Origin: Mesoplasma seiffertii ATCC 49495
GTDB taxonomy: Bacteria > Bacillota_I > Bacilli_A > Mycoplasmatales > Mycoplasmataceae
Assembly (NCBI RefSeq): GCF_000518725.1
Contig: NZ_KI912485.1
Location: 3,866 to 67,865 of the forward strand
Length of the DNA stretch: 64,000 bases
Reading direction: 5' to 3'
Position numbers and translations under genes: made by a program. Positions 44,069-56,375 of this stretch are shown piece after piece. Position 1 is the first letter of the stretch, and the number at the start of each line of letters is the position of its first letter. Below the pieces are notes generated by a model that worked only from the letters and a program-made list of their open reading frames with translations, had not been told where the DNA came from and did no database searches.

Positions 44069-44344
44069 ATGACAAAAAAAGAATTAATTGAAGAAATTTT
44101 AACTAACGAAGATATTTCAAAAACTCAATGTGAAGATATCGTTAACGCAATTTTTGAAAAAATTGGTAATGAATTAGCTTTAGGGAAAGAAGTATCAATT
44201 GCTGGATTTGGTAAATTTGGTATTAGTGAAAGATCATCACGTGAAGGTATCAATCCAAGTACAGGTGAAAAAATTACTATTAAAGCTTCAAAAAGTGCGA
44301 AATTTAAACCAGCTAAACAATTAAAAGAAACACTAAACAAATAA
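44069..44344 (+). CDS. hup: DNA-binding protein HU
   Basis: 91 residues; ATG 44069 after AAGAGGG. Nucleoid protein that bends DNA. Helical N-terminus and the beta-arm region with the HU signature GFGKFGISERSSREGINPST and KPAKQLKETLN. Normal length. Followed by a large palindrome terminator. Confidence 0.97.
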   Translation: MTKKELIEEILTNEDISKTQCEDIVNAIFEKIGNELALGKEVSIAGFGKFGISERSSREGINPSTGEKITIKASKSAKFKPAKQLKETLNK

Positions 44345-55529: not shown

Positions 55530-56375
55530 ATGGTTAAATTAAGATTAAAAAGAATTGGTAAAAAACAAGCTCCATTCTACAGAATTGTAGCTGCTGATTC
55601 TCGTGTTAACCGTAATGGACAATATATCGAATTAGTAGGTACATTTGATCCATTAAAAAACGAAGTAAAAATTGATAAAGAATTAGCTTTAAAATGATTA
55701 CAAAATGGTGCTCAACCAACTGATACAGTTAGAGATTTATTTTCAAAAGAAGGTGTAATGAAAGAATTACATGAAGCAAAATTAGCTTCTAAATCTGGAC
55801 AAGAGCCTAAAGCTAAAAAAGAAAAACAAGTTAAAACTGCTAAACCAGCTGCAAAAAAAGTAGCACCTAAAGCAGATAAACAAGCTGAAGCTGAAAAAGC
55901 TGTTAAAGAAGCTGCTGCTAAAGTTGCTAAAGAAACAGCTGAAGCTGAACAAGCAGCAATGGAAGCAAATAAAGCTATCGAAGCTGCAAAAGCCGCAGAA
56001 GCAATTGCAGTAGCAAAAGCAAAAGAAGCAGAAGAAGCAAAAGCACTTGCTGAAAAAGAAGCTAAAGAACAAGCTGAAGCTGAAAAAGCAGCTAAAGAAT
56101 TAGCGGCTAAATATGCTAAAGAAATTGCTGCATCAGAAGCAAAAACTGAAGCTGAAAATGCATTAGCTAAAAAAATGTCTACAAAAGAAAGAGCTGAATT
56201 AGATGGTTCAGCATCAATCGATGAACCAAGAAGTGAATTACAAAAACATGCTAATAAAATGCGTGCAATTGCAATCGCAAAAGACATTAAAATTAAAGAT
56301 TCAAACTTAAGAGATATGACAAAACAAGAATTAGTAAAATTCATGAAACAAGTATCTGTTAAATTAAACAAATAA
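55530..56375 (+). CDS. rpsP: 30S ribosomal protein S16 with a very long Ala/Lys/Glu-rich tail
   Basis: 281 residues from ATG 55530 (RBS AGGAGGTA). Residues 1-85 are a normal S16 ([31 protein letters not shown]), which is the entire protein in most bacteria (~80-100 residues). The rest is extra: a Lys/Ala linker (93-117), ~100 residues of Ala/Glu/Lys-rich sequence likely to form one long helix or coiled coil (117-215), then a distinct C-terminal segment (~230-281) with [18 protein letters not shown] that resembles a SAP- or LEM-like helix pair. No break in frame; TGA is Trp at codon 56. Function of the tail unknown. First gene of rpsP-rimM-trmD-rplS. Confidence 0.92.

Follow-up and report, generated by a model that had tools for sequence, protein, structure and literature searches.

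A C-terminal domain on ribosomal protein S16 of Mesoplasma seiffertii recurs on other ribosomal, membrane and HU proteins of the family

YidC/Oxa1 carry C-terminal ribosome-binding tails, and dockerins and type IX secretion CTDs are C-terminal sorting domains shared by secreted or surface proteins. The domain described here, hereafter the tag, ends an elongated ribosomal protein S16 and resembles both. Like its membrane hosts, YidC/Oxa1 present the cytosolic tail of a membrane protein, there meant to meet the ribosome, and as in dockerins and type IX CTDs, one C-terminal domain is found on many unrelated proteins with a common destination, which for the tag is putative. However, the tag differs from YidC/Oxa1 in sitting on the ribosome itself as well as on transporters, FtsH and HU, and from dockerins and type IX CTDs in that its carriers include ribosomes and most of its membrane hosts are predicted to expose it to the cytosol. 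We are aware of no earlier case in which ribosomal, transport and HU proteins have a domain in common.

Extensions of ribosomal proteins are common in bacteria, with largely elusive functions, and in Mycoplasma pneumoniae 11 of the 52 ribosomal proteins are extended (S6, L22 and L29 among them), disruption of the extensions affecting fitness or survival, according to the available text of the study (PMC9534751). The tagged ribosomal proteins likewise come from Mollicutes and are lengthened at a terminus, yet most of the M. pneumoniae extensions are predicted to be disordered and the available text mentions no domain common to several of them (PMC9534751), whereas the tag is one conserved domain across several ribosomal, membrane and HU proteins. 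No description of it was found by word match in the main bodies of open-access full texts, and it is not mentioned in the available text of two M. florum papers (PMC7745072, PMC10884336), of a genus study (PMC11567158) or, as regards the main text, of a Mollicutes translation survey that marks fusions in a supplement (PMC4014445). The novelty rests on the pattern of hosts, not on mechanism.

Ordinary S16 is about 80–120 residues long. In the window, i.e. the whole 64,000-nucleotide stretch that was analysed, the S16 gene is a single open frame under table 4 (55530–56375, + strand) of 281 residues, with one TGA read as Trp within the S16 core; leaving G055 aside, S16 is encoded by open frames of 92–166 codons in the remaining 58 genomes of the family. 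The core (residues 1–82; 55530–55775, +) exceeded the curated cut-offs over residues 2–77, with 102.4 bits for TIGR00002 (cut-off 45.3) and 78.9 bits for PF00886 (cut-off 27), and by this core the protein is still assigned to S16 in spite of its length. The usual gene order is rpsP-rimM-trmD-rplS; among the window neighbours L19 was identified by profile, and the RimM- and TrmD-like genes were named by eye only.

The core is followed by a spacer (residues 83–213; 55776–56168, +), in which 47 Ala, 28 Lys and 24 Glu among 131 residues bear out the Ala/Lys/Glu-rich stretch recognised in the initial annotation. A TolA-like match in the spacer (E 1.1e-4, 21.6 bits) stayed under its cut-off of 59.45. 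The spacer contains a seven-A run (55853–55859, +), the like-placed run of G053 having six A, and LAAKYAKEI (56100–56126, +), by eye the window version of a MEAKY-like motif upstream of the tag, which was present in 30 of 50 tagged frames of related loci; the near-identical S16 of G055 failed the pattern. Short helices are predicted for residues 190–213, with a block pLDDT of 71–77. The tag itself (residues 214–281; 56169–56372, +) was recognised by its profile with an E-value of 1.4e-32. A distinct C-terminal segment had been placed at residues 230–281; the segment is real, and the conserved unit begins earlier, at residue 214.

The window genome (G000) belongs to a genus of four genomes, with G053 ('Acholeplasma' multilocale ATCC 49900), G054 (Mesoplasma photuris) and G055; further labels are G011 (Mesoplasma grammopterae), G051 (Spiroplasma sp. 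TIUS-1) and G057 (Williamsoniiplasma lucivorax). The comparison of S16 length and tail in relatives, proposed at the outset, recovered in G055 a 281-residue S16 of identical architecture and 92% identity, in agreement with the unbroken frame first described. Between these two genomes the core had no amino-acid changes (dN/dS 0, dS 0.15), dN/dS was 0.18 (dS 0.51) in the spacer, and in the tag it was 0.058 (dS 0.21). The tag of this pair is under purifying selection, and this low ratio indicates that the end domain of S16 is kept by selection. The G055 architecture together with dN/dS rules out chance read-through or an assembly slip as the source of the window tail. Against G053 the tag gave a dN/dS of 0.455 (dN 0.31, dS 0.67) and the core 0.061, which indicates either weaker constraint there or different origins of the two S16 tags; in a tree of 51 tags the closest relatives of the G053 S16 tag were the S6 tags of genus g7.

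The whole S16 protein was searched against 60 family genomes, which returned S16 in all 60 and, in addition, many proteins matching the tail only. A profile built from 17 of the tail domains found the tag in 17 of the 60 genomes and five of 12 genera, and with a 36-tag profile 54 loci were counted as tags, all within the same 17 genomes, the other rows being short or partial. The tag lies at the C-terminus of its hosts, or internally in some HU-like proteins. Ribosomal proteins account for 22 loci (S6 11, L20 7, S16 3, S5 1) and membrane proteins for 30, which comprise 11 small proteins with two or three predicted transmembrane (TM) segments, nine proteins with TM segments and HU, seven PTS permeases, two amino-acid permeases with weak tags, and one FtsH (L079) with a divergent tag. 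One HU without TM segments and one decayed fragment (G008) complete the set, and no soluble metabolic enzyme was among the 53 identified hosts. Hosts confirmed over Pfam cut-offs were one each of S6, L20, S5, FtsH, PTS and amino-acid permease, four with HU, and S16, the remaining rows being assigned by likeness; 10 of the 11 small TM proteins were scanned and gave no family over cut-off. On S6 and L20 hosts the spacer measured about 94–201 residues. The tail had been read as a feature of S16, which does not hold given its presence on S6, L20, S5, PTS permeases, FtsH and membrane HU proteins. Nor did the resemblance suggested for the tail of L19 (57688–58116, +; PF01245 and TIGR01024 over cut-off): its short Lys/Ala-rich end gave no family over cut-off and no tag-profile hit, L19 lengths vary across the four genomes of the genus (142, 142, 131 and 128 aa), and by sequence the end is unrelated to the S16 tag.

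In a search of 320 genomes of the order, 33 had a match at E≤0.01, and full-length tags were confined to the same 17; the partial matches of the other 16 (15–23 bits, some in many near-identical copies) were judged unrelated. Six further family genomes had partial matches at E≤0.05, and in a class sample of 395 genomes the 10 that matched were all known tag bearers. Matches of 20–36 residues to the second half of the tag occurred in many near-identical copies per genome in G014, G027 and G653, perhaps representing an insertion-sequence protein.

At least one ribosomal protein was tagged in each of the 17 tag-bearing genomes, in G053 with the S16 tag out of frame, and the ribosomal hosts are drawn from both subunits. 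Which protein carries the tag varies by lineage. Within the genus of the window, S16 is tagged in G000, G055 and, out of frame, G053, and L20 in G054, where S16 ends at 91 aa; L20 is untagged in G000, G053 and G055 (open frames of 124–125 codons), and S6 gave no tag hit in the four genomes. S6 is tagged in all seven g7 genomes, S6 and L20 together in G003 and three of the four g12 genomes, L20 alone in the fourth (G056), and S5 with L20 in G051. Ribosomal and other hosts occur together in 12 of the 17 genomes, and five have ribosomal hosts only (G000, G055, G010 and G012 with one copy each, G051 with two). No second tag was found in the window genome at E≤0.001 by profile search, so there the tag would act from ribosomes alone, and a link to a second tagged protein is inapplicable. 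Weak rows at E 0.045 to 0.12, i.e. a PheS-like protein (by eye), a 60-codon open stretch and an HU start at 44069, were rejected. The start of this otherwise ordinary HU gene (by eye; window 44069–44344), MTKKELIEEI, resembles the last tag helix, MTKKELIKYM, probably by chance.

Tail DNA was copied from gene to gene within genomes. In G051 the genes for S5 and L20 agree at about 95% over their last ca. 720 bases, the identity ending at the stop codon and the DNA beyond it being unrelated; in G058 two PTS genes have ca. 300 bases in common at 97%; and the S6 and L20 tags of G059 are mutual nearest relatives in the tree. This tree comprised 51 rows and 70 columns, with 25 of 45 inner branches open, and omitted the weak L082 tag, the L096 permease tag and the decayed G008 copy. 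The minimum number of changes on it was 20 by host and 10 by genus, and 50 shuffles went no lower than 30 and 21, so the tags cluster by host and by genus, more by lineage. With the window tag, tblastn at E≤0.1 found no match among 50,697 phage records or 72,556 plasmid records, and of 193 pattern matches in viral contigs not one could be confirmed as a tag; a phage, plasmid or viral origin was accordingly rejected for these collections.

The structure prediction suggested at the outset gave a confident three-helix model for the end of the tail. AlphaFold2 with 12 rows returned a pLDDT of 93.3 and a pTM of 0.78 for residues 215–281, with helices predicted at positions 4–11, 20–36 and 51–66 of the 67-residue model. 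Seven residues were invariant in 36 tags (D12, G13, S14, L24, T51, K52 and E54, numbered by the aligned first row), and the net charge (K/R minus D/E) was +3 to +9 in 41 of 50 tags, the seven g7 copies between TM segments and HU being divergent, with −1 to +5. The ending had been likened to a nucleic-acid-binding SAP or LEM helix pair. It is small and predicted to be helical, as stated, but neither SAP nor LEM/HeH gave a row at E≤1 with the full window protein or with its C-terminal 55 residues, and membership was rejected; SAP, LEM and HeH were likewise absent among the matches listed for 17 tags at E≤1 (25 of 31 families) and for 36 tags at E≤0.1 (25 of 32 families).

The nearest described relative is Rho_N (PF07498), the N-terminal domain of the Rho termination factor, a helix-extended-helix family that binds (single-stranded) nucleic acid. 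It matched six of 36 tags at E≤0.1, at best with 5.3e-05, corresponding to 23.5 bits against a gathering cut-off of 24.9, and the window tag with 16.2 bits. When the Rho_N model was run over the 60 whole genomes, tags were the three best of five hits, and no genome exceeded the cut-off (best 23.0 bits). Since the scores stay under the cut-off, the tag is termed Rho_N-like and not a member. The similarity covers residues about 25–64 of the best tag, and may extend to the fold, as the model has a helix-loop-helix with a 14-residue stretch between helices 20–36 and 51–66; unlike Rho_N, the tag has an extra N-terminal helix with an invariant DGS motif and is a C-terminal or internal piece on other proteins. 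In fold searches a 92-residue model gave one Foldseek hit (E 8.0) and a VIA Z of 2.7, and the 67-residue model a best E of 0.84 and a best Z of 5.5 (8qe9_1F, rmsd 2.7, 53 residues), within noise; no Rho_N structure was among the hits listed for the 67-residue model. Sequence profiles against the PDB reached E 0.03 and 0.02 at best, with histone doublets, and no solved fold matches the tag convincingly.

Among the membrane hosts, simple hydropathy showed K/R to be richer before TM1 than after in 19 of 20 proteins with two predicted TM segments, and the C-terminus with the tag is thus predicted to be cytosolic; this orientation analysis covered the two-TM hosts, the PTS and amino-acid permeases lying outside the resolved set. 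The bias was absent in L036_2405, and L061, with three predicted TM segments, would place its tag outside. Tagged two-TM genes lie directly downstream of tagged L20, on the same strand, in two of seven loci, with gaps of 80 bp in G057 and about 300 bp in G058. Nine proteins (L070–L072, L074–L076 and L078 of g7, L042 and L081) combine two predicted TM segments with HU and have the tag between these or at the end, and by their predicted topology they appear to be membrane-anchored nucleoid proteins. The seven from g7 have an internal tag, between TM segments and HU, and seven of the nine have the L074-type HU region in common. A gene predicted by our own pattern to encode a lipoprotein adjoins six of nine TM+HU, two of 11 small-TM and one of seven PTS genes, and none of 20 ribosomal tag genes or three others, a pattern that is suggestive at most.

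Two of the three tags in G053 do not share the reading frame of their hosts; they make up one of the three S16 loci and one of the seven PTS loci overall. In the G053 S16 (L031:1990–2010; G053:C1 about 147490–147510) the frame stops right after A AAA AAG and the tag lies in the −1 frame, the window counterpart of this site being 55853–55859. A AAA AAG is a −1 slippery heptamer, and the arrangement may reflect frameshifting, slippage of the polymerase, a true loss or a sequencing error. The PTS permease L047 (G053:C3 8795–8989 and upstream) is out of frame with its tag near an eight-A run in a Lys-rich spacer.

It had been proposed that the S16 tail tethers the ribosome to nucleoid, membrane or another partner. 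Tethering stays the most sensible idea, and we infer that it gains from the same domain being present on membrane proteins and HU. We give about even chances to the S16 tail being a transferable address tag, which holds ribosomes, membrane proteins and HU to a common partner. The spacer would carry the three-helix Rho_N-like domain of about 65–68 residues away from the ribosome, and the domain would bind a single partner common to its hosts, most likely either nucleic acid, as mRNA or as nucleoid DNA, or a scaffold that the hosts share. Ribosomes would thereby be kept close to tagged transporters, to FtsH and to membrane-anchored HU. The likeness to Rho_N and the HU hosts put nucleic acid first among the candidates. 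The position of the tag on S16, S6, L20 or S5 according to lineage may be explained if an exposed C-terminus, which these proteins presumably offer, suffices. Speaking for the address model are the 54 loci on ribosomal, membrane and HU hosts, the ribosomal host in each of the 17 genomes, drawn from either subunit and exchanged within one genus, the copying of tail DNA, the purifying selection, the confident model, the rank of tags among the Rho_N hits, the predicted cytosolic side of the tag and the neighbouring tagged genes of G057 and G058. Counting against it are the Rho_N likeness under cut-off, the want of a convincing match to a solved fold, the lack of the tag in 43 of the 60 family genomes, the single tagged protein of the window genome, the frames and divergence in G053, the g7 charges, and the hosts L061 and L036_2405. 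A broader version, held more tentatively and short of even chances, is a zoning of the cell, in which one interchangeable domain, carried by ribosomes in every case and by transporters, FtsH or membrane-anchored HU in some, would tie translation, membrane transport and the chromosome either together or to a common scaffold, and in which any exposed ribosomal C-terminus would fit.

The main rival to a common partner would be contact between the tags themselves, by which ribosomes would be clustered or paired, for polysome order or storage, or linked to tagged membrane and HU proteins. The joint presence of ribosomal and other hosts in 12 of the 17 genomes and the neighbouring tagged L20 and two-TM genes of G057 and G058 are consistent with such self-binding, but the five genomes tagging ribosomal proteins only would leave ribosome–ribosome contacts alone, and we consider it unlikely. 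A neutral or selfish 3′ segment, spread by recombination between A-rich spacers and tolerated at C-termini, would account for the direct copying of tail DNA between genes, the low complexity of the spacer, the out-of-frame tags of G053, the decayed copy in G008 and the dN/dS of 0.455 between the window and G053 tags. This is quite improbable in view of the dN/dS of 0.058 between the window and G055 tags, the seven invariant residues, a ribosomal host in all 17 genomes (one out of frame), the lack of soluble metabolic enzymes among the hosts and the lack of phage, plasmid or viral matches. That the tag stays fused to many unrelated hosts, and is internal in the seven g7 proteins, makes it very unlikely that the tail is removed after synthesis, with the core on the ribosome and the tag at most a free peptide, although exposure of the low-complexity join is conceivable. 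A handle for quality control or turnover, recognised by a membrane protease or chaperone, would find a counterpart in the FtsH with a divergent tag; FtsH is, however, just one among 54 loci and abundant ribosomal proteins would be odd targets, so this reading is hardly credible.

Under the address-tag reading, the S16 extension is readable as a module, with the same domain on four ribosomal proteins from both subunits as well as on membrane and HU proteins, and its job is therefore unlikely to be tied to a particular ribosomal site. The finding makes the organisation of ribosome, membrane and chromosome in wall-less, near-minimal cells directly testable in these bacteria, and the hosts suggest a common address tag that may place ribosomes and other cell parts in a small wall-less group.
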